From positions 124,001 through 188,000 of the forward strand of contig NZ_MRTH01000004.1 in NCBI RefSeq assembly GCF_001956045.1: DNA of 64,000 nucleotides. The letters are read 5' to 3'. This document shows positions 4,230 through 19,044 of this stretch, piece after piece. The DNA is from Paenibacillus sp. FSL H7-0331. GTDB lineage: Bacteria > Bacillota > Bacilli > Paenibacillales > NBRC-103111. The notes under the pieces were generated by a model. That model was given only the letters and a program-made list of their open reading frames with translations, did no database searches and was not told the origin of the DNA. Position numbers and translations under genes: made by a program. The first letter of the stretch is position 1. Each line of letters opens with the position of its first letter.

Positions 4230-4257
4230 CGAAATGATGGAACAAGATTACGACAAC

Positions 4258-4282
4258 CTCCTGAACGTCAGGAGTGTTTTTT
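4258..4282 (+). terminator. Terminator after the two-component pair
   Basis: CTCCTGA (4258-4264), loop ACG, TCAGGAG (4268-4274), then a T-rich run to 4282. It isolates the importer operon from the regulator genes. Confidence 0.85.
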
Positions 4283-4323
4283 TATTTTTCTAAAATAGTA
4301 CACTATTATCAAACGAATGTCAG

Positions 4324-4341
4324 TTTGAAAGCACTTTCAAA
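4324..4341 (+). promoter_or_regulatory. cre-like palindrome upstream of the importer operon
   Basis: TTTGAAAG-CA-CTTTCAAA is an 18-bp inverted repeat. The core TGAAAGCACTTTCA differs from the ideal CcpA catabolite-repression site TGAAAGCGCTTTCA at one position. It lies 44 bp before the binding-protein start. It may be a CcpA or other LacI-family operator. Confidence 0.5.
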
Positions 4342-4384
4342 AAAACTAAGATAAAGAAGAACAAAATAAGGAGGGTATTGAACA

Positions 4385-5731
4385 ATGAAAAAGAAAAGTT
4401 GGTCGCTATTACTGGTCCTCTGCATGTTTTTCTCTATCATGGCCAGTGCATGTTCCAATCCAAGCAGCAAACCTGCAGAATCGGCAAAGCCCGGAGAAGC
4501 CGTCAAGCCTGCAGATGCCGGTAAAAAGACGAAGCTGGTAGTTTGGATTTGGGAATCGGCAAAAACGGGTGTAGATTTGAACATGGAAGAATTTAAGAAG
4601 CAATACCCGAATATCGAGGTTGAATTTCAATTGATGAAATCGACAGACTTGTATCAAAAGTATTTGATCGCTTCCAATACGGGAGATGCAGTGCCGGATA
4701 TTGTCTCATTGGAATCTACCAATCTTTCCCAAATGGTGCAAATTGATTCCTTACTGGATATTACTTCTCGTGTCCAGCCCTATAAAGACAAAATGAATGC
4801 GTACAAATGGGAAGACGCCACAAAGGATAATAAAATCTACGCGATGCCATGGGACAGTGGTCCGGTTGTGATGTTTTATAGAAATGATGTGTTCGCAAAA
4901 GCCGGTCTTCCTACCGATCCGAAGGAAGTTTCACAAAAAATCCAGACTTGGAACGATTACTATGAAGCAGCGAAACTAATTAAAGAAAAAACCGGCGTTC
5001 TGATGTATGGAGACTCAAAAACAAATTCAAGCAACCGTGTATTCGAGTCCATGATGTGGCAGCGCGGCTTGTGGTACTTCGATAAGCAGGGTAACGTATC
5101 CGTCGATTCGCCTCAGGTGAAAGAAGTAGCTGATTTTCTGGTCAAGATGCAAAAAGAAGGACTCGTATTTGATGCCCGTGCTAATACCGATCCTTGGGGT
5201 AATGCTATCAAAGAGGGTAAATTCGCTACCGTTGTAGGAGGCTCATGGCATGACGCGACCATCGAACAGCAGTATGCCCCTGGAGATAAGGGGAAATGGT
5301 CGGTTGCCATGATGCCAAAATGGTCCAAGGATGATAAATATGTCAGTGCCAACCAAGGCGGCTCTAACATGGCTATCAATAAAAATTCCAAGAATCCTGA
5401 AGAAGCATGGAAATTCATTGAATTTATGTTGGGTAAGGACAGTTCTCAAGCGAAAATGATGACAAAAGCAGGATTGTTCCCGGCACTGAACACCGTATAT
5501 AGCAGTCCGGATATGGACGCGCCATCTGCATACTTCAACAACCAGCCGGTCCTGAAAATGTATGCCGAGTCGTTAAAACAAACTTTCCCGCTTGCTTACA
5601 CTTCCGACTTTCCATTAGCCAATAAAATGATGACGGACGTATGGGCGCAAATCTTTTTAAACAATACGCCTTCGGACAAAGCTTTAAAAAGCATGGCTGA
5701 CGAGCTTAGGCAAAAGACGAAAAGAAAGTAA
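4385..5731 (+). CDS. CUT1 ABC importer, sugar-binding lipoprotein
   Basis: Extracellular solute-binding protein family 1, anchored outside the membrane by a lipid. The signal peptide has a lysine-rich start, a hydrophobic core and lipobox ASAC with lipidated C23. The mature part has the usual fold signatures: LVVWIWESAKTGV at the start, PDIVSLESTNL, YAMPWDSGPVVMFYRNDVFAKAGL and NPEEAWKFIEFML. The 448-aa length is typical. A strong SD (AAGGAGGG) precedes the ATG. It is first in an operon with two permeases, but a 202-bp spacer with two hairpin repeats separates it from them. The substrate is not readable from sequence; the linked YesM/YesN pair suggests an oligosaccharide. Confidence 0.93.
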   Translation: MKKKSWSLLLVLCMFFSIMASACSNPSSKPAESAKPGEAVKPADAGKKTKLVVWIWESAKTGVDLNMEEFKKQYPNIEVEFQLMKSTDLYQKYLIASNTGDAVPDIVSLESTNLSQMVQIDSLLDITSRVQPYKDKMNAYKWEDATKDNKIYAMPWDSGPVVMFYRNDVFAKAGLPTDPKEVSQKIQTWNDYYEAAKLIKEKTGVLMYGDSKTNSSNRVFESMMWQRGLWYFDKQGNVSVDSPQVKEVADFLVKMQKEGLVFDARANTDPWGNAIKEGKFATVVGGSWHDATIEQQYAPGDKGKWSVAMMPKWSKDDKYVSANQGGSNMAINKNSKNPEEAWKFIEFMLGKDSSQAKMMTKAGLFPALNTVYSSPDMDAPSAYFNNQPVLKMYAESLKQTFPLAYTSDFPLANKMMTDVWAQIFLNNTPSDKALKSMADELRQKTKRK

Positions 5732-5847
5732 GCACAAAATACCTATTCAATCTCGACAGGAATAACTGAGGGAGTGTCATGTTCATTCGAGCGAATGTGA
5801 ATCAGCATGAGTTCGATGGGAATGATGCCCCCTTTGTTTTTTGCTAA

Positions 5848-5927
5848 GCTTACGAAGTCAGTTTTGCTTCGCCAAACTTAGCAAATGCTTACGAAGTCAG
5901 TTTCGCTAAAGCGAAACTCATAGGAGG
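5848..5927 (+). repeat. Two direct copies of a hairpin-forming repeat abutting an SD site
   Basis: GCTTACGAAGTCAGTTT occurs at 5848-5864 and again at 5887-5903 (39-bp period). Each copy continues into its own hairpin. In copy 1 AGTTTTGC pairs with GCCAAACT with one mismatch. In copy 2 AGTTTCGCT (5899-5907) pairs perfectly with AGCGAAACT (5910-5918). The second hairpin ends four bases before AGGAGG (5922-5927) of the next gene, so it could tune translation of the permease or stabilise the binding-protein mRNA. It may belong to a dispersed genomic repeat family. Confidence 0.75.
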
Positions 5928-5933
5928 AAAGCT

Positions 5934-6821
5934 ATGAGAACCACAAGCTGGAAATGGCAGTTTCGACTCGCTCCTTATTTTTACATATCGCCATACTTTT
6001 TGTTGTTTATCCTGTTCTCTTTATATCCTATTATTTATTCATTTTATATAAGTCTCACGGATTGGAACGGTTCTAAAGTAAAGTCGTTTATCGGATTACA
6101 AAATTATACGACTTTAATGCATGATAACCAATTCTGGTTGTCTTTATGGAACAGCGCTGTGATCTATGTGATTTATGTGCCTATCATGCTTTTTCTGGCG
6201 CTTATTTTTGCCAGCCTGCTTAATGCGAACTGGATGGTCGGCAAAGGCTTTTTCCGTATGGCGTTGTTCGTCCCGAACTTTGTATCTGTTGTTGCCGTAT
6301 CATTCGTATTTGTTTTGATATTCAACACGCAGGATGGACTTTTGAATTCTCTGCTTATGAATTTGGGATGGTTGGATAACCGTATTCCGTGGCTGGAATC
6401 ACCGGGCTGGGCTCGGTTTACTGTGGCAATGATGGTTTTGTATCGCTGGCTCGGCTACAATATGCTGCTGCTTATGACAGGACTGCAAAGCATCCCCAAA
6501 GATTTGTATGAGGCCGCATATGTCGATGGCGCCACCAAAACCCAAAGTTTCTTTCTGATTACGATCCCTCTGGTGAAAAAGATATTACTATTCTGTACGA
6601 TTTTGTCCACGATTGGGACATTTTCATTGTTTACCGAACCCTTCATCTTAACCAAGGGAGGCCCTTTGAACTCTACGTTAACTCCTGTTTTGATGCTGTA
6701 TAACGAGAGCTTTCAAAACTTTAACTTTGGTTATGCTTCTTCGATCGCCGTATGTTTTTTTATTCTCATGATGCTGGTTTCGTTAGTTCAATTACGCTTG
6801 TTTGATGATAAAAATGGATAA
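5934..6821 (+). CDS. CUT1 ABC importer permease (MalF/LplB-like)
   Basis: Integral membrane permease of 295 aa with about six transmembrane segments. The first is YFLLFILFSLYPIIYSFYIS-like (residues about 18-40). The ATPase-docking EAA loop is seen as YEAAYVDGATKTQSFFLITIPL near residue 190. It partners with the permease starting 14 bp downstream to form the channel for the upstream lipoprotein. The start is an ATG behind AGGAGG. No ATPase gene is present nearby, which is normal for Paenibacillus CUT1 systems that share one MsmX-type ATPase. Confidence 0.93.
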   Translation: MRTTSWKWQFRLAPYFYISPYFLLFILFSLYPIIYSFYISLTDWNGSKVKSFIGLQNYTTLMHDNQFWLSLWNSAVIYVIYVPIMLFLALIFASLLNANWMVGKGFFRMALFVPNFVSVVAVSFVFVLIFNTQDGLLNSLLMNLGWLDNRIPWLESPGWARFTVAMMVLYRWLGYNMLLLMTGLQSIPKDLYEAAYVDGATKTQSFFLITIPLVKKILLFCTILSTIGTFSLFTEPFILTKGGPLNSTLTPVLMLYNESFQNFNFGYASSIAVCFFILMMLVSLVQLRLFDDKNG

Positions 6822-6835
6822 AGGGGGGAGAAGGC

Positions 6836-7693
6836 ATGCAGACCTCGGCTAAACAGAATTACAGCTGGAATCGCAAAAATGAATTTAACGCTATCCTCAT
6901 GTTTATCGTAATGGCTGTTGTTTCCGCAGTGATGTTATTTCCGTTTTTTTGGCTGCTAAGCTCTTCATTAAAAGCGGTAAGTGAAATATTCGTCAACCCT
7001 CCGATATGGATTCCTGAAACCTTGCATTGGGAAAATTTCGGGGAACTGTTTTTGAAAAGAAGCTTTGGTATCATTACGTGGAATAGTGTTTTACTATCCA
7101 CAACCTTTACTGTTGTAACACTGTTTCTATGCAGCTTGGGCGGTTATGCCTTTGCCAAATACGAATTCCGCGGAAAACAAATTTTATTCGTATTTGTATT
7201 AGCTTCGTTAATGATTCCTCACGAAGCGACAATGGTACCGCTGTTTGTCATCTATAAGCAGCTTCATTTAATTGATAATATTTGGGGGGTTATCCTTCCA
7301 GACCTTGCCAATGCCTTTGGTATTTTCTTTATGAGACAATACTGTCGGTCGCTGCCAGATGAGATGCTGGAAGCGGCACGGATTGATGGATGCTCGGAAT
7401 TTACACTGTTCCGAAAAGTAGTGCTGCCCAATTTGAAGTCGGCTTTTGCAGCTTTGGGCATTATTTTGTTCGTTAAGCAGTGGAACAATTTTTTGTGGCC
7501 GGTTGTTATTCTAAGGTCCAAAGAGAACTTAACACTTGCCGTAGCGATCAAAGCACTTGAAGACAGCAATTATACACCGTATCACTTGATCATGGCTGCT
7601 TCGGTTATTAGCGTCATACCGCTGCTTATTGTCGTGCTCGTTTTTCAAAAGCAGCTGATTTCCGGATTGACTGAAGGATCTGTCAAAGGATAA
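6836..7693 (+). CDS. CUT1 ABC importer permease (MalG/LplC-like)
   Basis: Second membrane subunit of the importer, 285 aa, with about six transmembrane segments. The EAA loop is LEAARIDGCSEFTLFRKVVLP (residues about 182-202). The C-terminus FQKQLISGLTEGSVKG is the typical MalG-type tail. SD GGGGGGAGAAGG precedes the ATG, and the 14-bp gap from the first permease shows co-transcription. No clear terminator was found downstream; the next transcription unit starts from its own promoter around 7774. Confidence 0.93.
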   Translation: MQTSAKQNYSWNRKNEFNAILMFIVMAVVSAVMLFPFFWLLSSSLKAVSEIFVNPPIWIPETLHWENFGELFLKRSFGIITWNSVLLSTTFTVVTLFLCSLGGYAFAKYEFRGKQILFVFVLASLMIPHEATMVPLFVIYKQLHLIDNIWGVILPDLANAFGIFFMRQYCRSLPDEMLEAARIDGCSEFTLFRKVVLPNLKSAFAALGIILFVKQWNNFLWPVVILRSKENLTLAVAIKALEDSNYTPYHLIMAASVISVIPLLIVVLVFQKQLISGLTEGSVKG

Positions 7694-7773
7694 TCGATAC
7701 CGACGACCTATCAGCATCAGCATCGGTCGAGGCACGATCGGATCCACTGGTTTTACAAATTCTTCACTTGCGT

Positions 7774-7803
7774 TTGATATTCTGATAACAAAGAGCTGAT
7801 AAA
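7774..7803 (+). promoter_or_regulatory. Promoter of leader copy 1
   Basis: TTGATA (7774-7779), an 18-bp spacer and GATAAA (7798-7803). The same arrangement, TTGATG-18-GGTAAA, recurs at 14654-14683 in the second leader, which supports it as a real sigma-A promoter. Confidence 0.55.
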
Positions 7804-7833
7804 CTAGGAAATGTAGCAAACAAACGAATAGGT

Positions 7834-7927
7834 AAGGGTACGAGTCGAGGAGAATACCCTTTATGCAACAAATGGAAGAGCCTTTGTTTTGGCGCGCCGC
7901 TTCCGTTTGATGGATAAAGGGTTTTTT
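7834..7927 (+). promoter_or_regulatory. Attenuator leader copy 1 (proposed GlpP target) before the surface phosphodiesterase
   Basis: Two alternative RNA folds are visible. An early hairpin AAGGGTA (7834-7840) : TACCCTT (7855-7861) overlaps the 5' arm of a terminator CCCTTTAT (7857-7864) : ATAAAGGG (7914-7921) followed by six T (7922-7927). Only one can form at a time, as expected of a transcription attenuator. The terminator arm encloses a second helix GGAAG (7874-7878) : CTTCC (7900-7904) around GGCGCGCC. A near-identical element sits at 14713-14807. Because glpP lies between the two, binding by GlpP in response to glycerol-3-phosphate is the favoured but untested reading. A small-molecule riboswitch is the alternative. 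Confidence 0.7.
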
Positions 7928-8018
7928 GTGTTGTTCAAGGGAAGGAGACCGCGGGCTTAACAGCAGATGTTCACATGTCGATGGTTTGTAAATGAACTCA
8001 TGAAAGGGTTGAAAATTG

Positions 8019-11000
8019 ATGAAGAGGTACTCCATGAAAAAGCATGCTAAATATGTAGTTGTAATCATGATAATAAGTTTAATAAGCAGTATGTTTCAAG
8101 TGCCTATGCTTCCATCCAAGGTTCATGCTGCGGATGCAGGGAGAAAATCGCTGGATGTGAATAAGACGATAACATCACCCGTAATTGACGGCAAGCTGGA
8201 TGATTCGGTCTGGAAAATTGATCAGCCTCTGAATGCGCGTGTAGGCGAAGGCACCTTTAAAGACAGCAAATTTGGCTTACTGTGGGATAATAAATATTTA
8301 TATTTGGGAATTCAGGCTGATGACGACACGCTTGTGAACGGGGGAACGGGGAATTGGTTTGAACAGGACAATATTAATGTGTTCCTGGATCCCAAGCTTC
8401 ATCAATCCACACCTTATGTGGCCGATGACATGCAGCTTGGTTTTGTATATAAACCGAATACGACGGTACCTGAGTTTCATTATGGTGCTGCAGCTAATGG
8501 TCAGGCAGCCAAGGATGATAAGAAAATATTGAGGGCCATCAGTAAAACCGCTACAGGTTGGTCTCTTGAAGTCGCATTGCCGTGGGATATGATCAATTTT
8601 GACCCGGTGTTGAAAAAACAATTGGGTTTAGAAATTGGTGCTACAGACCGTTATGATACGGACCCCGCCAAGAATAGAACCAGCTTCTGGAGTGCTTATA
8701 ACTCGTTTTCCTTCTGGAATGATACTTCCGGTTTTGGAAACATTACGCTTGTGGACAGCAGTCCGGTTTCAGGCAGCTTGAACAATGTAATTCTTCAGGA
8801 AAATTTCGACAATTATGCTACAGGTCAAATTCCAGACGGATGGATTTCGGATATTAATGCCGGAAGCCCCCCATTCTCCGTAGTGAAAGATACATATGGC
8901 AATGGAAGAATGACCTTTAATGGGATTACTTCCGGTCAACAAAGTCGCATTATAGCGCCGGTCCAATGGGACAATTTTGTCATTGAAGCGGATGTTCGGT
9001 TCGATGCATGGAAGGATACGGGAAGATGGGGTTCAATTATGTTCCGGGCACCCTCCACTGGCAAACCTCCCTATTCGCAAATGGCTATTAAGCCGAATGG
9101 TATTATTGAGGTCGCCTATAGAAAGCCTGATGGCAGCTGGGTCTCACCAATCACCCTTACGGGAGCGGGACTAGCGCTGAACAAAGATTATACGATGAAA
9201 GTAAGAGTCTTCGATAATCATGTTCAGGATTATTTTAAAGATAAGAGTGCGCCCGCCTTTGATCTCAAAGGGGATAAGTTCTTGACTCCGGATATGCTGC
9301 CAGAAAGAGGAGCAATCGGTTTTCAAGGTGATCAGAGCAAGGTTTCCTTCGATAATCTGAAAGTGACCCGTATTACGGCTGATCGGCTCGATATGACGAT
9401 GCCTGGCACACTTGAGGCCCTGACAGGACCGGCTAGCGTCACAGCCAGTGTGTATTATTCGGATGGTGTAACAGATTCCCCTTCTGATGGACGGGTGAAG
9501 CTATATTCATTGGATGAAAGCATTATTAGAATTATTGACAACAAGATCTATCCTATCAAGCCGGGTAAAGCAATGGTTAAAGCTGTTTATTATAACCAGG
9601 AAGTATCAAAAGAAATTACGGTTACACCGTCTCTGACAGGGATTAAGGCGACATCCATCAAGCATGATGACGGTTATATTTTGGCTACTGCTGGTCAGGA
9701 TGTGCTGCTGAATTCGGTTATATTTAAAGCGGAATTTAATGACTTTTCAACGGGAACTATCAAGGGCGATGAATTAACCTGGACTCCCAGCAGTCCTGAC
9801 GTCGTTGTAGCGAATGGCAAAATAACGGCGCAAACAAAAGGCGTTTACATGCTTACTGCTGCAGCAAATGGTGCTACAGCGAATATGGCTCTAGTCGTTA
9901 AAAACGCTGGTGATAGTGAATACACGTTATACGAAGAGAACTTTGATAATGCCGCAGAGGGCTCACTGCCTCAAGGATGGACGAGAAAAGAGGGGACTAC
10001 AGTTGGTGCAGCTGTGGTGAAATCCGGAGCATTTGAGCTGAATGCGAGTGCTGCTCCCGATAATCCTTCCCGAGTGCTGCTGCCCGATTATTTGGGACTG
10101 TTCGGCAATTACAGGATTGAAGCTGATGTTACGCATTTGGCTGCCAACGACGCGGCCAGATGGCACTCGATCATGTACAGAATACAAAACAACGACTATC
10201 CCTACTACCAAATGGCTGTTAGGAAGGATGCAACTGCATCCAATGGGATTGAGTTTGCCGAGCGAACAGCTGCCAATGGATGGAACGTAATGGAGACAGG
10301 TTCGAATTCCGAAGCTATTGATGTAGCTAAATTATATCATTATACGGTCAAAGCCCATGGAAGTCGGGTGCAGGAGTTGATTAATGACCGGGTAATTGTA
10401 GACAGCAACGCGGCAACAGCATATACGAAAGGAAGAATTGGGCTTCAGTCCAACGGAAGTAAAATGAAGGTGGATAATATTCGAATCACTTTGCAGCAAG
10501 AGGCGCTGCCGCCGATGCCGAGTGAACGATTCGTCCAGGTTACAGAGCCGGAAAGCCGAATTTCCATGGCCCCGTCTGTGATCACCGAGCTGAAGACGAT
10601 GAAGGATTTGACAGCATTAACCGGACCTGTTCTGCCTGCGACTGTAATGGTCCATGTGAACAGTGATTTAAAGGTTACAGATCCAACAGGCCAGACGGAA
10701 ATTGCAAGTCTTGACACTATTTTGGACACGATCGGAAACCGGATGATTCCTGCTTTTTACATTAAGGATGAGCAGACTGTAGATAAGCTGATGGATGCTC
10801 TGAAGAACAAGGGTATGGAAGATGCATTTGTCATCTCTGACAAGGGGGATTTGGTTAAGAGGGCAAGAACGGCCTATCCAATTATCCGTGGTATTGTAGA
10901 TTTCAGTAATATTAAAGATGTAACGCAAGAGGGCTTGTTGGACATTCGTAGACAAACCACACGCAGCCTTGCCAAGATCGCACTGCTGCCACAGAGTGCA

Positions 11001-13865
11001 GCCTCCATGGATAATGTTGCGTACCTTCAGCAGCGGCTGATCGTAGTGTGGTCGAAGGAAGCTGCTAGTGCAACTGGTCACAGCCTGTCGATGCACAGCT
11101 TGATTACAGCTGGAGTGAACGGAATTGTCACGGATTCACCAAATGAAGCTTTCACTGCTTTTCAACTGTATTCGAATAATACAACATTGATCCGTAAGCC
11201 TTATATTATCGGTCATAGAGGCATGCCGACGAGCGCTCCCGAGAACACGATCGAAAGTGACAAGCTTGGGTTGGATAACGGAGCAGACTTTATTGAAAAT
11301 GATATTTATGTAACCAAGGACAATCGTCTAGTCATTATCCATGATGCTGAATTGTCGCATACAACGGATGGCGCAGGAAATGTTGAGGACTTTACACTGG
11401 AGCAATTAAAGAAACTGAATGCCAATAAGCCGTTCCCAACAGGCTTTCCGTATGTTCAAATTCCGACACTGGATGAGCAGATTGAACTGGCTGCAAGTAG
11501 AGGGAAAATGGTCATGGCTGAAATCAAGACGAGCACGCCAGCTGCTGTTGCTGCCTACGTCAAGCTGCTTAAAGAGATGAAGGCAGAGGGGCTTGTCGAC
11601 TCGATGTCCTTTAGCTCGAATCAATTAAAGCTGCTGGCTGATCAGATGCCGGAGATGCCTTCGGGCTTGCTGGTGAACAGCATCAGCTCTAATGAGACGA
11701 ACGCCAATAAATCACTGCGTGATGCGCTGAGAACGGTTCAAGGTCTTAATGCCACGTTCAACGTAGGCTATTATGGGATTGGCAAGAACTTCCTGGAGGC
11801 AACCAAGCACCGTGGATTAATCGTATCGCCGTGGACCATTAATAACCAGGATGATCTTAAAAACTTGTTCGCGCTAGGAGCCTTTGGGTTAACGACCGAT
11901 TATGCGCTGTGGGCTGCGGATTGGGCCGCTTCGGTTAAACCGGAGAAAGACAACTATGTGTTGCTGAAGGATGAAGGCTTGTCCTTACATGCAACCGTCG
12001 AAACCTACAAAGGCACCAAATCGACCGTAACCCCGGAAGTCGTGCTGCTGGACGGTCAAGATTTCATTGGGGTGGATCAAGGCAAGGTAACAGCCAAGAA
12101 GTCAGGAACCGCGCATGTGCTGCTCAGATATACAGCCGCCATGGACGCCAGCCGGAAATATGATTTGTATACGAAACCGATCACTATTGAGGTCAAAGGG
12201 CAGGAGCCGGAGAACCCAGGAGGTAATCCAGGAGAAAACCCAGGAGGTAATCCGGGCGGAAATCCCGGTGGAAACCCAGGAGAGAATCCCGGTGGTAACC
12301 CAGGAGAAAACCCGGGTGGTGGTAACCCGAATCCTGAGCCAGTAACCTATACACTCAGTGTGGATCCGAAGCAATATACGATTATTGTGGGCAGAGAACA
12401 GAACATCGACAATGTAACCTATTTGTCTGCAAAGGATAGCCAAATTGTAACTCCTTATGCAGCCTACACACCTCGTGACAATACCATTGTATCTGTAGAG
12501 AACGGTAAGATGCGGGCGCTCCTAACCGGTTCTACAGTGATTGATGTTGTTTACCGCAACACGACCGCTTCCATTGACGTTACGGTGGTGCTCAAACCGT
12601 CCAATTCGAGTTCGGGCGGCTCCTCCACAACCCCGGATACATCCGGAACTGGAACTGGAACATCTGGCACAGGCAATAACGGTGATGGCAAACAGTCCGT
12701 TAAGCTTGAAGCCGTCGATGGCAAGCTGGATGCGGGTCAACTCAGAAATGCATTTGCTGCTGGCACCAGAGTTGAGGTGCATATGACAGGCGAGAAGCTG
12801 GAGCTCAGCGCGGCTGGGCTGTTGGATGCATCACAAATAAACGGAAGCACACTGGTCATTACAGGCGATAGCAATGCTGCTTATTATTTGCCAGTATCCA
12901 CTTTAAATCTAACGGGATTGGCACAGCAGCTGGGTGTAAGTGTGAATGACCTGACGATCCAGGTGACGATCAAGAAGCTTGACGACAGCATGGCGGCAGC
13001 AGTTGCAGCAGCTGTGGTGAAAGCAGGCGGACAACAAATCGCCACTGCCGTAGATTTTGATGTTCAGGCAGTCAATAAGAGTGGCCAATCACTTCCTATA
13101 TCCTTTGGCTCCACCTATGTGGCTCGCGAGTTAAAGCTTGGCAAGGAAGTCGATTTCAAGAAAGCGACGGGTGTACAGTTTATCCCGGAAACGAAAATGC
13201 TCCGGTTCGTTCCGACCGTATTCGAAACGAAGGATGGTCAGACAACAGCTACACTTAAACGAAATGGCAACAGTATGTATACCGTAATGGAGAATAACAA
13301 AAGCTTCACCGATCTGGCCAACCATTGGGCAAAAGCGGACGTGGAGTTGCTGGCTAACAAGCTGGTGGTTGATGGGGTTAGCGATAGCCGTTTCGAGGGT
13401 GATCGCAATATCTCTCGCTCGGAATTTGCGGCACTGCTTGTTCGTGCCCTGGGTATAAGCCCAACTGCTGCCAAGAGTGATTTCCGCGATGTAGCCTCCG
13501 ATGCCTGGTATGCTCCTGAGGTGGCTGCTGCGGCGAAAGTAGGTCTGATCAGCGGCTACGAGGATGGTACATTCCGTCCTGATAGGGAAATTACGCGTGA
13601 GGAGCAGGCTGCTATGGTCATCCGTGCCATGTCCTTCGTAAGCGTGGATACGGCGATTTCGGCAGCACAGCAAAGCGAAACCTTGGCGCCATTCAAGGAT
13701 GCCAATAAGATCGCTTGGGCTAAATCCGAGGTAGCTACCGCTGTGCATGCGGGTCTGATGAATGGAATGACACCAGACACGCTCGATTTGGCAAGCTATG
13801 CAACACGTGCCCAATCCGCTGTTATATTGAAACGTTTCTTAAGCAAAGTCAATTTTATTAACTAG
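8019..13865 (+). CDS. Giant surface glycerophosphodiester phosphodiesterase with SLH anchor
   Basis: Secreted, S-layer-associated protein of about 1948 aa. Order of parts: signal peptide (cleavage likely after VHA, about residue 37); a CBM9-like domain (about 45-245, PVIDGKLDDSVW); a concanavalin/LamG-like domain beginning ENFDNYATG; a bacterial Ig-like region; a second concanavalin-like domain beginning ENFDNAAEG; a degenerate GDPD-like half (about 860-1055, ending GIVTDSPNEA); and a catalytic GDPD domain with H1066-R-G, PENT (E1075), E1093-N-D1095 and H1108 in VIIHD. Then come a Gly-Asn-Pro-Glu repeat linker (about 1399-1443) and three SLH domains (about 1763, 1820 and 1890 onward). GDPD enzymes release glycerol-3-phosphate from glycerophosphodiesters; GlpQ-type members also attack poly(glycerol phosphate) teichoic acid. 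Alternative starts are TTG 8016 and ATG 8034 (SD GAAGAGG). Confidence 0.9.
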   Translation: MKRYSMKKHAKYVVVIMIISLISSMFQVPMLPSKVHAADAGRKSLDVNKTITSPVIDGKLDDSVWKIDQPLNARVGEGTFKDSKFGLLWDNKYLYLGIQADDDTLVNGGTGNWFEQDNINVFLDPKLHQSTPYVADDMQLGFVYKPNTTVPEFHYGAAANGQAAKDDKKILRAISKTATGWSLEVALPWDMINFDPVLKKQLGLEIGATDRYDTDPAKNRTSFWSAYNSFSFWNDTSGFGNITLVDSSPVSGSLNNVILQENFDNYATGQIPDGWISDINAGSPPFSVVKDTYGNGRMTFNGITSGQQSRIIAPVQWDNFVIEADVRFDAWKDTGRWGSIMFRAPSTGKPPYSQMAIKPNGIIEVAYRKPDGSWVSPITLTGAGLALNKDYTMKVRVFDNHVQDYFKDKSAPAFDLKGDKFLTPDMLPERGAIGFQGDQSKVSFDNLKVTRITADRLDMTMPGTLEALTGPASVTASVYYSDGVTDSPSDGRVKLYSLDESIIRIIDNKIYPIKPGKAMVKAVYYNQEVSKEITVTPSLTGIKATSIKHDDGYILATAGQDVLLNSVIFKAEFNDFSTGTIKGDELTWTPSSPDVVVANGKITAQTKGVYMLTAAANGATANMALVVKNAGDSEYTLYEENFDNAAEGSLPQGWTRKEGTTVGAAVVKSGAFELNASAAPDNPSRVLLPDYLGLFGNYRIEADVTHLAANDAARWHSIMYRIQNNDYPYYQMAVRKDATASNGIEFAERTAANGWNVMETGSNSEAIDVAKLYHYTVKAHGSRVQELINDRVIVDSNAATAYTKGRIGLQSNGSKMKVDNIRITLQQEALPPMPSERFVQVTEPESRISMAPSVITELKTMKDLTALTGPVLPATVMVHVNSDLKVTDPTGQTEIASLDTILDTIGNRMIPAFYIKDEQTVDKLMDALKNKGMEDAFVISDKGDLVKRARTAYPIIRGIVDFSNIKDVTQEGLLDIRRQTTRSLAKIALLPQSAASMDNVAYLQQRLIVVWSKEAASATGHSLSMHSLITAGVNGIVTDSPNEAFTAFQLYSNNTTLIRKPYIIGHRGMPTSAPENTIESDKLGLDNGADFIENDIYVTKDNRLVIIHDAELSHTTDGAGNVEDFTLEQLKKLNANKPFPTGFPYVQIPTLDEQIELAASRGKMVMAEIKTSTPAAVAAYVKLLKEMKAEGLVDSMSFSSNQLKLLADQMPEMPSGLLVNSISSNETNANKSLRDALRTVQGLNATFNVGYYGIGKNFLEATKHRGLIVSPWTINNQDDLKNLFALGAFGLTTDYALWAADWAASVKPEKDNYVLLKDEGLSLHATVETYKGTKSTVTPEVVLLDGQDFIGVDQGKVTAKKSGTAHVLLRYTAAMDASRKYDLYTKPITIEVKGQEPENPGGNPGENPGGNPGGNPGGNPGENPGGNPGENPGGGNPNPEPVTYTLSVDPKQYTIIVGREQNIDNVTYLSAKDSQIVTPYAAYTPRDNTIVSVENGKMRALLTGSTVIDVVYRNTTASIDVTVVLKPSNSSSGGSSTTPDTSGTGTGTSGTGNNGDGKQSVKLEAVDGKLDAGQLRNAFAAGTRVEVHMTGEKLELSAAGLLDASQINGSTLVITGDSNAAYYLPVSTLNLTGLAQQLGVSVNDLTIQVTIKKLDDSMAAAVAAAVVKAGGQQIATAVDFDVQAVNKSGQSLPISFGSTYVARELKLGKEVDFKKATGVQFIPETKMLRFVPTVFETKDGQTTATLKRNGNSMYTVMENNKSFTDLANHWAKADVELLANKLVVDGVSDSRFEGDRNISRSEFAALLVRALGISPTAAKSDFRDVASDAWYAPEVAAAAKVGLISGYEDGTFRPDREITREEQAAMVIRAMSFVSVDTAISAAQQSETLAPFKDANKIAWAKSEVATAVHAGLMNGMTPDTLDLASYATRAQSAVILKRFLSKVNFIN
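12210..12342 (+). repeat. Coding repeat for a Gly/Asn/Pro/Glu linker
   Basis: Short degenerate repeats encoding NPGG/NPGE units (about ten) between the catalytic part and the Ig-like/SLH part of the surface phosphodiesterase. They form a flexible, probably wall-spanning linker. Such repeats are prone to slippage, so unit number may vary between strains. Confidence 0.85.
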
Positions 13866-13934
13866 GTTTGATGCGCTTCGTTTCTTGATTCGGGTTTGGT
13901 GAGCGAAGCTGTATGAACAAAATGGTTGCATACA

Positions 13935-13978
13935 AAAGTTTGCTTGGGCTGTGCCTAACAGTCCAAGTAAACTTTTTG
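13935..13978 (+). terminator. Strong terminator after the surface phosphodiesterase
   Basis: AAAGTTTGCTTGG (from 13935) pairs with CCAAGTAAACTTT (to about 13975), with a one-base mismatch near the base and a T run at the end. It separates the phosphodiesterase gene from glpP. Confidence 0.85.
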
Positions 13979-14055
13979 TTGATTTAAGTTAATATTGCGC
14001 AAACAATAGTCTGGTAAATTGGAATAGGTGTAAGAGTTGGAAAGGATGTTGGCTA

Positions 14056-14619
14056 ATGAGTAATATTGAACATGATTATTGGGGCCCCAAACGGATCATA
14101 CCTGCGGTTCGCAAGGTTGAGGATTTGCAAGCAGCCTGCCGAAGCGACAGTCCGGTAGTTTTCCTACTGATCGGCGATCTGCTCACCGTGGAGGATTATA
14201 TTAAACAAGTGCAACAAGCAGGTAAAAAGATTTTTCTGCATGTCGATTTTATTACGGGATTGGGTGGCGACCCGATTGTAATGAAGTTTGTAGCCGAGCG
14301 ATTGCGGCCGACAGGCATCATATCCACAAAGAGCCATTTTGTAAAGCATGCCAAAAAAAATGGGCTGATGGCGATCCAACGGATTTTTTTGATCGATACG
14401 TCGGCTTTGGAGCATGGCATCCACAACATTGAGCAGAGTGGGCCCGATGCTGTTGAAATTATGCCTGGGTTGATCCCTCGTGTGATTACCAAACTCTGTG
14501 ATACGATTTCCATACCTATTATCGCTGGTGGATTAATTCACGATCATAGTGAGATTACAATGGCTTTACAGGCTGGTGCCAGTGCTGTATCGATGGGCAG
14601 CAAGCGGCTATGGATTTAA
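14056..14619 (+). CDS. glpP: GlpP, glycerol-3-phosphate-responsive antiterminator
   Basis: Cytoplasmic RNA-binding regulator of the G3P_antiterm family, 187 aa, which is full length. Recognisable stretches are IPAVRKVEDL, VFLLIGDLLTVEDYI, KKIFLHVDFITGLGGD, GIISTKSHFVKHAKKNGL, QRIFLIDTSALEHG, EIMPGLIPRVI and IPIIAGGLIHDHSEI, the TIM-barrel-like fold with a phosphate-binding end. In Bacillus, GlpP bound to glycerol-3-phosphate prevents termination in the leaders of glp genes. Here it sits between two genes or operons that carry matching attenuator leaders. The ATG follows GGAAAGGA. Its own upstream region contains no copy of the leader, so it appears not to be controlled by the same element. 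It sits directly upstream of leader copy 2 with no terminator of its own. Confidence 0.9.
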   Translation: MSNIEHDYWGPKRIIPAVRKVEDLQAACRSDSPVVFLLIGDLLTVEDYIKQVQQAGKKIFLHVDFITGLGGDPIVMKFVAERLRPTGIISTKSHFVKHAKKNGLMAIQRIFLIDTSALEHGIHNIEQSGPDAVEIMPGLIPRVITKLCDTISIPIIAGGLIHDHSEITMALQAGASAVSMGSKRLWI

Positions 14620-14653
14620 TAATGTCACAGGTTTACAAAATCTTAACTTCCGC

Positions 14654-14683
14654 TTGATGCTCCGATAACAGAAGCTTGGTAAA
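14654..14683 (+). promoter_or_regulatory. Promoter of leader copy 2
   Basis: TTGATG (14654-14659), an 18-bp spacer and GGTAAA (14678-14683), matching the promoter of leader copy 1 in motif and spacing. Confidence 0.55.
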
Positions 14684-14712
14684 GTAGAGATGTAATAACT
14701 AATCGAATATAC

Positions 14713-14807
14713 AAGGGTACGAGCCGAAGAGAAAACCCTTTTATGCAGCAAGTGGAACCGCCTTTATTTGGGCGCGCCGATTCCGTTTGATGGATAGAGG
14801 GTTTTTT
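14713..14807 (+). promoter_or_regulatory. Attenuator leader copy 2 (proposed GlpP target) before the phosphatase-importer operon
   Basis: Homologous to 7834-7927. Antiterminator AAGGGT (14713-14718) : ACCCTT (14735-14740) overlaps the terminator 5' arm CCCTTTTAT (14736-14744), which pairs with ATAGAGGG (14794-14801) before six T (14802-14807). The inner helix is GGAA : TTCC around GGGCGCGCC. The block TTCCGTTTGATGGAT is identical in both copies and the total length differs by one base. Compensating changes appear where the arms differ (TA pair lost in the first hairpin, G-U in the second), which suggests that the structure is selected. Confidence 0.72.
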
Positions 14808-14838
14808 GTGTTGTTCCAAGAAAGGAGATGCTCACAGA

Positions 14839-15648
14839 TTGCCGGATGTGATGGATTGGGATGGTTACTTTTTTGATTTGGATGGAACGATTTTACTTGG
14901 AGAACAGCTGCTCCCGGGTGTCTCGGAAACTTTGGCCGTGTTAAGGCAAACAGGAAAAAGGATTTTGTTCTTGAGCAATACTACGACGCGAACCCGTATG
15001 GATTGCGTGAATCGGCTGCGCAAGCTTGGCCTTGAGGCGCACCTGGAGGAAATCGTGACGGCAGCTTTCACAGCAGCTATATATCTGCGTGAAGGCACGC
15101 AGGAGCCGCTGGTATTTGCAGTCGGGGAGCCGGCACTGTTCAGTGAGCTGGATGAGCAGGGGGTCAAGCATACGATGGACCCGCTTGCCGCTACACATGT
15201 GCTTGTAGGTATGGATATGCATTTTGATTACGATAAGCTTCATCAAGCTATGACGGCTGTACGCAATGGAGCTGCCCTGATCGCTGCGAACCCCGATCCG
15301 AATTGTCCGGTCGTCGGCGACGTCATCCCTGATACGTGGTCGATGGTGAAGGCCATAGAAGCGGCAAGCTGTATAGCACCGCATGCTGTTATCGGCAAGC
15401 CGTCCGAGCATTATGCAGCTAAAGTGCAGGAATGGAGCGGTCTGAGTGCCGAACGTTGTCTAATGGTGGGTGACCGGCTGGAAACGGATATTTTATTCGG
15501 GTCAAATCATGGCTTTTACACGGCGCTTGTATTGACGGGGGTCACGGCGAAGGGAGATATCGAACAATCTCTGATACAACCTGATTATGTATGGGATTCA
15601 TTGGATGATTTACTATCGATCCTGACCATGCATAAGGAACAGGTGTAA
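14839..15648 (+). CDS. HAD-IIA sugar/glycerol phosphatase (NagD/PGP-like)
   Basis: Cytoplasmic phosphatase with a C2 cap. Visible HAD motifs are FDLDGT (nucleophile D13, acid D15), FLSNTTTRT (motif II), GKPSEHY (motif III lysine) and MVGDRLETDILFG (motif IV). About 269 aa, normal for the HAD-IIA family (NagD, AraL, phosphoglycolate/glycerol-3-phosphate phosphatase). TTG at 14839 is chosen because AAAGGAG (14821-14827) sits 11 bp upstream; an earlier GTG at 14806 lies in the terminator T-run and can be excluded. It is the first gene after leader copy 2 and is followed by a UgpB-like receptor. Some HAD-IIA enzymes dephosphorylate glycerol-3-phosphate, which would fit this locus, but substrate specificity cannot be read directly. 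Confidence 0.88.
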   Translation: MPDVMDWDGYFFDLDGTILLGEQLLPGVSETLAVLRQTGKRILFLSNTTTRTRMDCVNRLRKLGLEAHLEEIVTAAFTAAIYLREGTQEPLVFAVGEPALFSELDEQGVKHTMDPLAATHVLVGMDMHFDYDKLHQAMTAVRNGAALIAANPDPNCPVVGDVIPDTWSMVKAIEAASCIAPHAVIGKPSEHYAAKVQEWSGLSAERCLMVGDRLETDILFGSNHGFYTALVLTGVTAKGDIEQSLIQPDYVWDSLDDLLSILTMHKEQV

Positions 15649-15819
15649 GCAGTCAGGCTCAGACGAACCACTGCAGCAAAGCACAGAGCATTAGAGTTTA
15701 CACCTGCTTCACACTGCTGTAATCATGGGATCACAATGGTTTGTTACAGTGAATGAGGAAGCGGCGGAAGTGGGCAGTTCTTCACAAATAAGATCATAGG
15801 AAAAAGGAGAGATTTACTT

Positions 15820-17145
15820 ATGCGTTCCCTCACAACAAAAATGATAGGTCTTACTTTATGCGTCTCCATGCTGGCCGCCTGCGCCAAAACGACAACCGAG
15901 CCATCTGCGGCAGCACCTGCAGGGGCACCGACCGATACGAAAGCAGAGAAGGTCGAGCTTAGCTTCTATTATCCGATTGCTGTGGGTGGTCCTCTGACGG
16001 CTACGATTGAAAGCATGGCTCAGGAGTTTACCAAGCTTAATCCGAACATAACCGTTAAGCCGATATACACAGGCAGCTATGCGGATACCGCAGTCAAAAC
16101 CCAAGCAGGCGTACAGAGCAAGAATCCACCCGATGTGGCCGTGCTTCAGTCTACCGAGCTGTTCAGTCTGCTGGACATGAACGCGATCGTTCCGTTGGAT
16201 GATTTCATTGCCAAAGAAGGCGGCGATAAATATTTGTCCGATTTCTATCCGGCATTTATGTCAAACTCCCAAACCGGCGGGAAGACATACAGCATTCCGT
16301 TTCAACGCAGCACCATTGTGCTTTATTACAACAAGGATTTGTTTAAAGCGGCAGGGCTTGATCCAGAGAAGGCTCCTCAAACCTGGGACGAGATGAAGGA
16401 TTATGCGAGCAAGCTAACCAAAAACGGGGTATGGGGCTTGGAAATTCCGGTGACGGGATATGCTTACTGGATGATGCAAACCTTTGCGTTGCAAAATGGT
16501 AAAAATTTGATGTCCGAGGACGGTAAAAAGGTCATGTTTAATACACCTGAGAACGTGCAAGGACTGCAATATTGGAGCGATTTGGCGAAGAAAGACAAAG
16601 TAATGCCGGAAGGCGTCACCGAATGGGGAACTGTACCCTCTGACTTCCTGGAAGGCAAGACGGCGATGATGTACCATACAACCGGCAACTTATCCAACGT
16701 GAAGAAAAATGCCAAATTCAATTTTGGTGTGAGCTTCCTGCCTAAAAATAAAAGCTTTGGAAGTCCAACAGGTGGCGGAAACTTCTATATCTTCAAAGAT
16801 ATCGAAAAGAAAAAGCAGGAAGCAGCCTGGAAATTCGTGAAATTTATGACCGAAACGGAGCTTGCTGCACAATGGAGCATCGATACCGGTTATGTCGCTG
16901 TTAAAAAATCGGCCTATGATACAGAACGAATGAAGAAATATGCGGCAGAATTCCCCGCAGCTCTAATTGCCCGTGATCAGCTGCAATATGCCGCTGCGGA
17001 GTTATCCACACATAACAACGGCAAGGTTATGAAAGCATTAAACGATCCGATACAGGCCGTGTTGACAGGCAGTATGGCACCTGCTGAAGCTCTGCAAAAG
17101 GCACAGGAGGAAGCAGACAAGGCGCTTGCACCCTTTAATAAGTAA
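15820..17145 (+). CDS. UgpB-like glycerol-3-phosphate/glycerophosphodiester-binding lipoprotein
   Basis: Lipid-anchored receptor of a CUT1 importer, 441 aa. The signal peptide ends in lipobox MLAAC. The mature part begins VELSFYYPIAVGG and continues MAQEFTKLNPNITVKPIYTGSY, then STIVLYYNKDLFKAAGLDPEKAPQTWDE. This order and wording resemble UgpB, the G3P/glycerophosphocholine receptor, more than typical sugar receptors. That is a judgement from memory of the family, not an alignment. It lies 171 bp after the phosphatase. A possible internal promoter is TTTACA (15697-15702) -17- TAATCA (15720-15725). It works with the two permeases that follow. Given glpP and the surface phosphodiesterase, G3P or a glycerophosphodiester is the likely ligand. 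Confidence 0.85.
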   Translation: MRSLTTKMIGLTLCVSMLAACAKTTTEPSAAAPAGAPTDTKAEKVELSFYYPIAVGGPLTATIESMAQEFTKLNPNITVKPIYTGSYADTAVKTQAGVQSKNPPDVAVLQSTELFSLLDMNAIVPLDDFIAKEGGDKYLSDFYPAFMSNSQTGGKTYSIPFQRSTIVLYYNKDLFKAAGLDPEKAPQTWDEMKDYASKLTKNGVWGLEIPVTGYAYWMMQTFALQNGKNLMSEDGKKVMFNTPENVQGLQYWSDLAKKDKVMPEGVTEWGTVPSDFLEGKTAMMYHTTGNLSNVKKNAKFNFGVSFLPKNKSFGSPTGGGNFYIFKDIEKKKQEAAWKFVKFMTETELAAQWSIDTGYVAVKKSAYDTERMKKYAAEFPAALIARDQLQYAAAELSTHNNGKVMKALNDPIQAVLTGSMAPAEALQKAQEEADKALAPFNK

Positions 17146-17217: not shown

Positions 17218-17264
17218 TCATGATGTACGGACTTACTCAGATATTAATGCGAGGAGGCCCCCAA

Positions 17265-18158
17265 TTGGGCAGCAAAAAATCAGTCTTTAGCTGGAAAACC
17301 AATGCGTTTGCCTGGATGCTTCTAGCGCCATCGCTTGTCTTTTTGTTTCTATTTACGTTCTATCCGATTGCCAAAACGATTCGACTCAGCTTTTATCAAG
17401 CCGATTTGGCGACACCGGTACCTATTTTCAACGGTTTGGATAATTATAAGCATTTGCTGGACGATATGGTTTTTTGGCAGGTCATGTCCAACAATATGTG
17501 GTTTGCGATTGGCACGGTCCCGACCTCGATTCTGTTAGCGATCCTTATGGCGGTATTCACCAATAAAGTAATGCGGGGCACAAGCCTGGCACGGACCGCA
17601 TTTTTTTATCCAACGTTAATTCCGATGATTGCAGTAGCTAATATTTGGTTGTTTATTTACACGCCGCAGTATGGATTGCTCAGCAGAGTCATGAAAGGCT
17701 TTATGCAAACCGATGTGAACTGGCTGGGATCACCGCAGTATGTAATGTGGGCAATGGTGATTATGGTAATTTGGAAGGAGGCCGGATATTTTATGATTTT
17801 TTACTTAGCCGGTCTGCAAAATATTTCTCCGGATTTGTATGAAGCTGCACAGATGGATGGTGTGGGACGCTGGACGGTATTTCGTAAAATTACCTTTCCA
17901 CTGCTGATGCCGACAACATTATTCGTTTCCATTGTGGCCTTGACCAATTCGTTTAAGCTGGTGGATCACTTGCTGATTATGACCAAGGGTGGACCGAACA
18001 ACGCCAGTAATTTGCTGCTCTATTATATTTACGAATCTGCGTTCAGCTTCTGGGATCAGGGAATGGCTTCAACCTTGACGGTTGTAATGATTGGGGTTCT
18101 TCTATTGTTTGCAGCGTTAAATTTCCTCGGACTGGACAAAAAAATTCATTATCATTGA
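17265..18158 (+). CDS. UgpA-like ABC importer permease
   Basis: MalF-type membrane subunit, about 297 aa, with about six transmembrane helices (first WMLLAPSLVFLFLFTFYPIA-like). The EAA loop is YEAAQMDGVGRWTVFRKITFPLL. The TTG at 17265 is preferred because GAGGAGG (17251-17257) is 7 bp upstream, whereas the ATG at 17220 has no SD. It forms the channel with the next gene for the UgpB-like receptor. No ATPase gene follows, so a shared UgpC/MsmX-type ATPase encoded elsewhere is required. Confidence 0.88.
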   Translation: MGSKKSVFSWKTNAFAWMLLAPSLVFLFLFTFYPIAKTIRLSFYQADLATPVPIFNGLDNYKHLLDDMVFWQVMSNNMWFAIGTVPTSILLAILMAVFTNKVMRGTSLARTAFFYPTLIPMIAVANIWLFIYTPQYGLLSRVMKGFMQTDVNWLGSPQYVMWAMVIMVIWKEAGYFMIFYLAGLQNISPDLYEAAQMDGVGRWTVFRKITFPLLMPTTLFVSIVALTNSFKLVDHLLIMTKGGPNNASNLLLYYIYESAFSFWDQGMASTLTVVMIGVLLLFAALNFLGLDKKIHYH

Positions 18159-18209
18159 TGCCTCTCAAGGCCCAAGTAAGCTCCCGTGAGGGGGAGAAAG
18201 GCGATCCCT

Positions 18210-19022
18210 ATGCTGCTTAAAAAATTGAATATAAGCCAATGGCTCTTATATATAGGTGCCGCCTTCTGGCTAGTGCCGCTGCTTTGGATGACGGTAACCG
18301 CATTCCGCCCCAGGCAAATTGCTTTGTCACCTTCATTTTCACTGGAGTTCACACTTGATAATTTTGCCCGGGTCTGGTCGGCTGCACCCTTCGCGCAATA
18401 CTATTTGAATACGATCCTGATCGTGGTGGGCGTATTCCTCGTACAGATGATTACGGCTTCGATGGCTGCCTTCGCCTTTGCAAGAGTGGAGTTTCGCGCG
18501 AAAAATATCGTGTTCCTGCTGTTTCTTATCCAAATTATGGTGCCTGCCGATGTGTTGATTTTTCCGAATTACAGCGTACTCAAGGAATTGTCACTGCTCG
18601 ATACCAAGCTCGGTGTGATGCTGCCGTATTTTGCATCGGCTTTTGGCATCTTTCTGCTGCGGCAGATGTTCAAGACGATCCCTCCAGAGCTCGACGAGGC
18701 TGCTGTAATGGAAGGCTACTCGAAATGGCAGATTTTGTGGAAAATCTATTTCCCGCTTTCCCGTCCAACTTATGTGGCCTTTGGGCTCGTATCCGTCAGC
18801 TATCATTGGAACAATTTCCTATGGCCTTTAATTGTTACCAACTCCGTAGAGAACCGTCCCTTGACGGTAGGTCTGGCTATATTCGCACAGTCGTTCGAGA
18901 TAGGTGCTCAATGGACTGAAGTCAGCGCTGCTACACTGCTCGTCATCGCACCGCTGATGATCGGATTCCTGTTATTTCAACGACAGTTTATGAACAGCTT
19001 CATTCATTCAGGAATGAAATAA
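18210..19022 (+). CDS. UgpE-like ABC importer permease
   Basis: MalG-type membrane subunit, about 270 aa, with six predicted helices. The EAA-type loop is LDEAAVMEGYSKWQILWKIYFPL. It begins at an ATG 8 bp after GAGAAAGG; an upstream in-frame GTG at 18186 lies within the SD region and is rejected. The gene follows the first permease by 51 bp and is followed by the TIM-barrel gene after 22 bp, so all belong to one operon. Confidence 0.88.
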   Translation: MLLKKLNISQWLLYIGAAFWLVPLLWMTVTAFRPRQIALSPSFSLEFTLDNFARVWSAAPFAQYYLNTILIVVGVFLVQMITASMAAFAFARVEFRAKNIVFLLFLIQIMVPADVLIFPNYSVLKELSLLDTKLGVMLPYFASAFGIFLLRQMFKTIPPELDEAAVMEGYSKWQILWKIYFPLSRPTYVAFGLVSVSYHWNNFLWPLIVTNSVENRPLTVGLAIFAQSFEIGAQWTEVSAATLLVIAPLMIGFLLFQRQFMNSFIHSGMK

Positions 19023-19044
19023 TAACCAAGAAAGGATGATGAAT

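Follow-up and report, generated by a model that had tools for sequence, protein, structure and literature searches.

Glycerophosphodiester locus and its two leaders

The 64,000-nucleotide stretch of Paenibacillus sp. FSL H7-0331 analysed here (contig NZ_MRTH01000004.1, positions 124,001 to 188,000; referred to as the window, its first letter being position 1) contains genes for a surface phosphodiesterase, a GlpP-family antiterminator, a HAD-IIA phosphatase and a UgpBAE-like importer. Domain searches agree with the initial annotation of this DNA in placing one leader before the surface phosphodiesterase gene (leader 1), a second one before the phosphatase-UgpBAE-like operon (leader 2), and glpP between them. 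As judged from sequence comparisons, both leaders are probably GlpP-controlled transcription attenuators located behind phosphate-starvation promoters. The leaders and genes of the locus are as follows.

7834..7861, +: early (antiterminator) hairpin of leader 1, AAGGGTA:TACCCTT, enclosing the GlpP-type core at 7836-7859
7855..7927, +: intrinsic terminator of leader 1 with T6 (-31.0 kcal/mol)
8016..13865, +: surface phosphodiesterase (GDPD/SLH protein) with CBM9, two 3keto-disac_hyd stretches, GDPD and three SLH stretches
14056..14619, +: glpP, predicted glycerol-3-phosphate (G3P)-responsive antiterminator of orthologue group A (PF04309, 214.8 bits)
14713..14740, +: early hairpin of leader 2, AAGGGT:ACCCTT, enclosing the core at 14715-14738
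14734..14807, +: intrinsic terminator of leader 2 with T6 (-26.6 kcal/mol)
about 14845..15648, +: HAD-IIA phosphatase (TIGR01460 over cut-off; open reading frame open from 14806)
15820..17145, +: UgpB-like solute-binding protein (NF008211, E 1.5e-53, 181.9 bits versus a cut-off of 411)
17220..18158, +: UgpA-like permease (NF007852, E 9.1e-32, below cut-off)
18186..19022, +: UgpE-like permease (NF008210, E 3.7e-37, below cut-off)

The GDPD/SLH protein downstream of leader 1 comprises about 1950 residues, and GlpP has solved relatives in the PDB (3kts and 1vkf). The HAD-IIA phosphatase scored 194.8 against TIGR01452 (PGP), under the cut-off of 201.95. The names UgpB, UgpA and UgpE denote best matches only, all of which are under the NCBI equivalog cut-offs.

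Leader 1 (7834-7927) is 94 nt long and leader 2 (14713-14807) 95 nt. Their likeness in promoter spacing, length and a shared block, pointed out in the initial annotation, is evident in the alignment: 83 of 95 columns are identical, the block TTCCGTTTGATGGAT is unchanged between the two copies, and the promoter stretches are identical at 61 of 83 positions. The early hairpin pairs 7834-7840 with 7855-7861 in leader 1 (7 bp, -6.5 kcal/mol) and 14713-14718 with 14735-14740 in leader 2 (6 bp, -4.8 kcal/mol). Because ACCCTT is common to the early hairpin and the 5' arm of the terminator in both leaders, the two folds are mutually exclusive, and the overlap with the T6 terminator that had been read as alternative folding is thus upheld. 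As in an attenuator, the 3' strand of the core contributes to the 5' terminator arm in both copies.

The full-length leaders fold better than their shuffles (z of -3.1 and -2.4 for leaders 1 and 2, respectively), whereas truncated transcripts containing the early hairpins alone are unremarkable (z of +0.4 and +0.7). That these hairpins are not unusually stable by themselves counts against the model, and they probably form with the help of a protein or some other factor. The case for the predicted early hairpins is comparative. No Rfam 15 family matched either leader at gathering scores, and the two sub-threshold matches in the region 7000-15500 both lie outside the leaders. No third leader was found in the window by an expression combining the core with an overlapping terminator.

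Leader core and its association with GlpP

The leader core, GG-N-GAG-N4-GGAGA-N-CC, was compared with the genomes of relatives. Comparison with the canonical leaders of Bacillus subtilis is decisive for the proposed role of GlpP: in genome G215, which we take to be B. subtilis 168-like, the same core is held by the glpD leader (GGTCCTGAGATGAGGAGAGACC) and by the glpTQ leader (GGATGGAGATGAGGAGAGCC). A wider consensus derived in this analysis, GG-N(1-5)-GAG-N(2-8)-RGAG-N-CC, was found in both window leaders and in these two leaders of G215. The glpF/glpFK leader of this genome was not caught by the core-plus-terminator expression, which misses some leaders. GlpP has been reported to activate glpD, glpT and glpFK in B. 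subtilis (PMC9604022).

The exact core yielded 25 matches in a scan of 84,980 species genomes (the window's own genome possibly not being among them), and every match falls in a Paenibacillus, Cohnella or Paenibacillaceae bin. According to BLAST searches against the window proteins, the downstream gene encodes a big GDPD protein in 16 and a HAD protein in nine of the 25; none of the matches precedes an unrelated gene, so the objection foreseen in the initial annotation, leaders standing before unrelated genes, does not arise. The core form GGGTACGAGATGAGGAGAAAACCC is seen in relatives of the window, and the core is nearly invariant over many species while the apical part drifts. Both leader copies persist as a pair in several genomes. 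A covariance model was built from the 25 leaders, in whose terminator eight of 21 consensus pairs are changed on both sides. Among 296 genomes of the order, the model found matches in 65 at E<=0.01 and in 46 at E<=1e-5; the GlpP follow-up described below covers the latter 46, the other 19 having only weaker matches.

The core-plus-terminator expression was also applied to 115 stretches (114 loci of relatives and the window), nearly all of which had been chosen for glpP or the leader, and gave 114 leader calls compared with eight in the reversed sequence. Because it misses some leaders, such as the leader match of G490, and some calls are plainly false, the 114 calls are neither a full nor a clean set. 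The strands closing the early hairpin covary, giving 243 paired positions among 70 representatives (shuffles, 220.1 +/- 5.0; 0 of 5000 as high) and 183 among 55 distinct arm pairs (shuffles, 165.9; 2 of 5000 as high); relatedness among the genomes inflates these shuffle figures as well as the Fisher values given below, and this has to be set against them. A column-by-column test confined to a single register showed a weak signal (52 and 57 of 90 for the inner pairs, with shuffle means of 45.7 and 48.0) because the GG and CC runs shift, and the clearer value of 243 was obtained by letting these runs extend. In glpD-type leaders, a TTAATA-like stretch occurs a few bases 5' of the core, e.g. in locus L196 (4375), and TAATA is present within 12 nt upstream of the core in 38 of the 114 calls.

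Genomes of the nearest genus all encode PF04309 proteins (13/13), with one to four copies each in distinct paralogue groups. The window's GlpP thus belongs to a set of paralogues, a point absent from the initial annotation. Its orthologue (80-99% identical) is present in five of the 13 genomes, all five of which have the leader, twice each; the leader was found in one of the eight genomes without the orthologue, that of Paenibacillus sp. H1-7 (Fisher p 0.005). The same association was found on wider scales. All 18 genomes behind the exact-core matches contain a GlpP-type match, and 16 contain the window's orthologue (70-99% identity). At the order level, GlpP proteins matching that of the window at E<=1e-60 (59-99% identical) occur in 29 of 296 genomes, and the leader is present in 28 of these 29 versus 18 of the 267 others (Fisher p 6e-26). 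In 15 of these 18 leader genomes, the locus itself encodes a more distant GlpP (identity of 38-42% in 14 of them, the fifteenth being G125). The expectation in the initial annotation that the leader would be accompanied by glpP thus holds for 18 of 18 exact-core genomes and, among the 46 model genomes, for the 28 with the close GlpP and the 15 with a more distant one; in G008, G322 and G490, no GlpP was found in the stretch read. The shared core of the glpD and glpTQ leaders, the gene association in 25 of 25 matches and the co-occurrence with GlpP together support the proposal that the leaders are GlpP targets.

Which GlpP would act on them is less clear-cut. The leaders may answer any cellular GlpP, including the glpFKD type, so that no dedicated local circuit exists; we regard this as a considerable, if less than even, possibility. 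Related cores are found in every GlpP leader group seen. Paenibacillus sp. H1-7 has a single leader before a lone HAD gene and no orthologue, its best GlpP being at most 48% identical; in Cohnella sp. SGD-V74, the leader is accompanied by distant paralogues and by mere fragments of the orthologue. The reverse case, an orthologue at E<=1e-60 without a match to the covariance model, is G243, which counts against the main proposal. On the other side stand the strong co-occurrence of leader and orthologue, the position of glpP in the locus and the different leaders of the paralogue clades, which favour a local circuit served by the neighbouring glpP. The leader of Cohnella sp. SGD-V74 (L121, G172:C13:187796-188072) is intact, whereas the glpP orthologue is seen only as two fragments, which contain one stop codon; their location on the same contig is deduced solely from the contig number. 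The operons of group B GlpP (HAD-GlpP, mostly with GlpD, GDPD and Ugp; L076-L080 and L082-L084) carry leaders of their own whose core is related, and each locus gave one or two leader calls.

Pho-box-like promoter arrays

The promoters of both leaders contain arrays of four hexamers with an 11-bp period, in the form TTTACA-N5-TTMACT-N5-TTGATR-N5-ATAACA, which end 9 nt before the -10 hexamer. A third array was found before the UgpB-like gene.

7752..7790, +: Pho-box-like array 1, TTTACA-N5-TTCACT-N5-TTGATA-N5-ATAACA (score 17 of 20, against at most 14 in 200 shuffles)
7800..7805, +: -10 hexamer TAAACT, 9 nt past array 1
14632..14670, +: Pho-box-like array 2, TTTACA-N5-TTAACT-N5-TTGATG-N5-ATAACA (score 16; best of 200 shuffles, 14)
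14680..14685, +: -10 hexamer TAAAGT, 9 nt past array 2
15697..15735, +: Pho-box-like array 3, TTTACA-N5-TTCACA-N5-GTAATC-N5-ATCACA (score 16; before the UgpB-like gene, no GlpP leader)
15745-15750, +: -10 hexamer TACAGT of array 3

The hexamers were scored against an assumed consensus, and mononucleotide shuffles served as the null for single promoters. These three sites are the only ones scoring at least 16 on either strand of the window, compared with a mean of 0.1 and a maximum of 2 in 60 Markov shuffles. All 26 distinct promoters of the leader contain the four-hexamer array (scores of 15 to 18), each scoring at least as high as the best of its 200 shuffles, with three ties. The region upstream of the window's glpP lacks such an array (best score, 10). 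In the initial annotation, TTGATA at 7774 had been taken for a promoter element; this assignment is replaced by the present one, in which it is the third hexamer of the array. TTGATA and its counterpart TTGATG were considered as -35 hexamers and dropped, the distance of 20 nt to the -10 hexamer being too long. The gap before the ugpB-like gene of L109 also scores 16, and similar arrays were seen by eye, without scoring, in L097, L107 and L086. The Pho-box-like promoters and the third, attenuator-free box are additions to the initial annotation.

A review describes Pho boxes in general as built of an 11-nt direct-repeat unit (PMC4415409). For comparison, the pstS promoter in G215 reaches a score of 19, and a related pstS array is present in 10 of 13 Paenibacillus-group genomes (TTTACA-N5-TTWACG-N5-NNNGTT-N5-TTTACA), followed by a -10-like hexamer at the same distance as in the window. 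Apart from the third hexamer (see below), these likenesses make the leader arrays candidate PhoP sites.

The arrays are unevenly distributed among gene classes. In the leader set, an array had to be matched by no more than 1% of 400 shuffles and to lie 60-100 nt upstream of the core in order to be called, and the genes downstream of the 114 leader calls were assigned by BLAST. By this rule, arrays precede 21 of 37 Ugp/GDPD/HAD leaders versus none of 64 glpF/K/D leaders (p 5e-12), and were not called in the three glpTQ-type leaders or the 10 leaders without gene assignment. The window's group A has the array in 13 of 13; when this group is excluded, the numbers are eight of 24 versus none of 64 (p 1e-5). 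Among 20 further loci, L352 has no leader call and the other 19 hold 35 leaders (leaving out one spurious core call in L351), of which 29 pass the shuffle test with 300 shuffles and 28 satisfy the 60-100 nt rule, one passing array being at 102 nt. In this sample, the Pho-box-like promoter is restricted, among GlpP leaders, to those of putative phosphorus-scavenging genes.

In a tree of 126 GlpPs, the proteins near array-bearing leaders fall into three clades, at least four changes being forced by the starred branches, although several long branches make deep placement unsure. The window's GlpP belongs to a fully supported clade of nine, and no array-bearing leader occurs in the set of 59 rows with the B. 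subtilis-type GlpP (support 94). GlpP paralogue clades thus differ in their leaders. In the tree, labelling as array-bearing is sensitive to the 9-kb limit set for leaders and to the renewed shuffling; L220, which was positive in the earlier call, falls just short there. In L354 (G479), L232, L247 and L274, a GlpP leader with a Pho-box-like array is located directly before glpP itself, which suggests autoregulation in some lineages.

Several observations tell against the PhoP assignment or blur its limits. The third hexamer of the Paenibacillus pstS array differs from that of the leader arrays, being GGGTT-like; in the 10 genomes showing this array, between 0 and 6% of shuffles score as high, and the array is absent in this form in L279 and L281 and present in a different version in L277. 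The group B HAD/GDPD/Ugp leaders lack an array by the 60-100 nt rule, and no four-hexamer array was scored within 110 nt of the B. subtilis glpTQ leader. Outside the position window, the array score is passed by a glpF leader (L210, at 51 nt) and a GlpP-HAD leader (L222, at 110 nt). Six of 178 other upstream regions also pass at any position: those of the third array (in the window and L109), two before glpP (L101 and L102) and two that are unexplained (L077 and L108).

Other OmpR-family regulators also bind direct repeats with a period of about 11 bp. It is conceivable, then, that the GlpP attenuators are real and that the promoters are ordinary or bound by such a regulator, the hexamers not being PhoP sites, and the deviating third hexamer would fit this. 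We nevertheless consider it unlikely: the spacing from array to -10 hexamer is the same as in pstS, the arrays follow the phosphorus-scavenging and not the glpF/K/D leaders, and a third array precedes ugpB in a window where sites of this score are rarely expected.

Two accounts without GlpP fare far worse than GlpP-dependent attenuation. The interior of the early hairpin is highly conserved, as might be expected of a riboswitch sensing G3P or a similar ligand without any protein, but a conserved element of approximately 24 nt with a weak hairpin would leave little for a pocket; together with the absence of an Rfam match, the strong co-occurrence with GlpP and the occurrence of this core upstream of genes whose control by GlpP is published, this makes a riboswitch very improbable. 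That the leaders are constitutive terminators or a recent duplication without a regulatory role, as their identity in 83 of 95 columns might suggest, is hardly credible given the nearly invariant core with its drifting apical part, the persistence of pairs in several genomes and the covarying closing stem.

Additional genes flank the locus. The region 3027-7693, directly 5' of leader 1, encodes a response regulator whose end looks AraC-like by eye, together with an ABC importer consisting of a solute-binding protein and two permeases, and contains no leader of the type of leaders 1 and 2. At the end of the Ugp operon (19036-19857) is a gene for a TIM-barrel-type protein with a weak CbiR/endonuclease IV-like match, which is kept in only some relatives.

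Proposed regulation and known systems

We infer PhoP and GlpP binding, G3P as the ligand, the substrates and the order of events as follows. When phosphate is short, phosphorylated PhoP on the four hexamer half-sites would start transcription, and the terminator would form as long as the inducer is missing. Once the GDPD reaction or import raises the cellular G3P level, GlpP-G3P would bind the early hairpin (GGG...CCC around a GAG-N4-GGAGA interior) and keep ACCCTT from the terminator, and the polymerase would then read into the surface phosphodiesterase gene or the phosphatase-UgpBAE operon. G3P, released from glycerophosphodiesters by the surface GDPD, would be taken up by the importer and split by the HAD phosphatase into phosphate and glycerol; surface hydrolysis, import and dephosphorylation would form one phosphorus-scavenging pathway, fully expressed only when phosphate is scarce and G3P is being made. 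Because the UgpB-like gene has its own predicted PhoP-type promoter without an attenuator (array 3), phosphate starvation would by itself suffice for a certain amount of importer, which, supplied in advance, would admit the inducer. In Paenibacillus sonchi shifted to low phosphate, glpQ mRNA has been reported to be increased at 6 and 24 h and to respond later than pstS (PMC7793946); this late rise fits a delayed second gate, although it concerns a different species and gene.

More broadly, and with confidence that falls just short of even, we propose that GlpP function in Bacilli may be split between two kinds of circuit. The carbon circuit would comprise glpF/K/D and lack a Pho box; in the phosphorus circuit, at least three paralogue clades would be associated with Ugp/GDPD/HAD genes, and a Pho box before the attenuator would create a coincidence gate for low phosphate and G3P on one transcript. 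With its importer ungated, the Paenibacillus pathway would scout on starvation and commit when G3P appears. Among the titles listed in searches of open-access papers, which leave aside most subscription papers, none describes double control by GlpP and PhoP.

GlpP is known as an antiterminator of glycerol use; if the proposed scheme is true, its role extends to acquiring phosphorus, each paralogue being linked to leaders of its own, and a single transcript is controlled first by a transcription factor and then by a metabolite sensor that binds RNA. The compact RNA consensus may be used to find GlpP regulons in Bacilli, no Rfam 15 family matching the window leaders, and the paralogue-leader pairs within one family could show how the specificity of an RNA-binding protein changes. 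The scheme is also a testable one for glycerophosphodiester use by soil and rhizosphere Paenibacillaceae.

Among known systems, the B. subtilis glpD and glpTQ leaders resemble those of the window in the core (GAG-N4-GGAGA between GG and CC), the overlap with the terminator, the G3P-related downstream genes and the protein family. The window leaders differ in having a Pho-box-like promoter and in preceding genes for a surface GDPD and HAD-UgpBAE rather than for glycerol catabolism, and the window's GlpP belongs to a separate paralogue clade. B. subtilis GlpQ has been reported to be PhoPR-dependent (PMC6232261), so that glpTQ, with its GlpP leader, offers a precedent for both inputs; its transporter is GlpT, whereas the window encodes an ABC importer. 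The PhoPR-dependent pstS-type promoters of Bacillales share the 11-bp-period hexamers ending 9 nt before the -10 hexamer, but the third hexamer is unlike that of Paenibacillus pstS, and arrays 1 and 2 are followed by a GlpP attenuator (starting at 7834 and 14713, respectively), the predicted second gate. Finally, ugpBAECQ of Escherichia coli, for which a review describes two promoters, one under Pho and one under cAMP-CRP control (PMC4415409), likewise combines phosphate-regulated glycerophosphodiester uptake with a second nutrient input; in E. coli this input is a second promoter, whereas in the window it would be antitermination on the same transcript.

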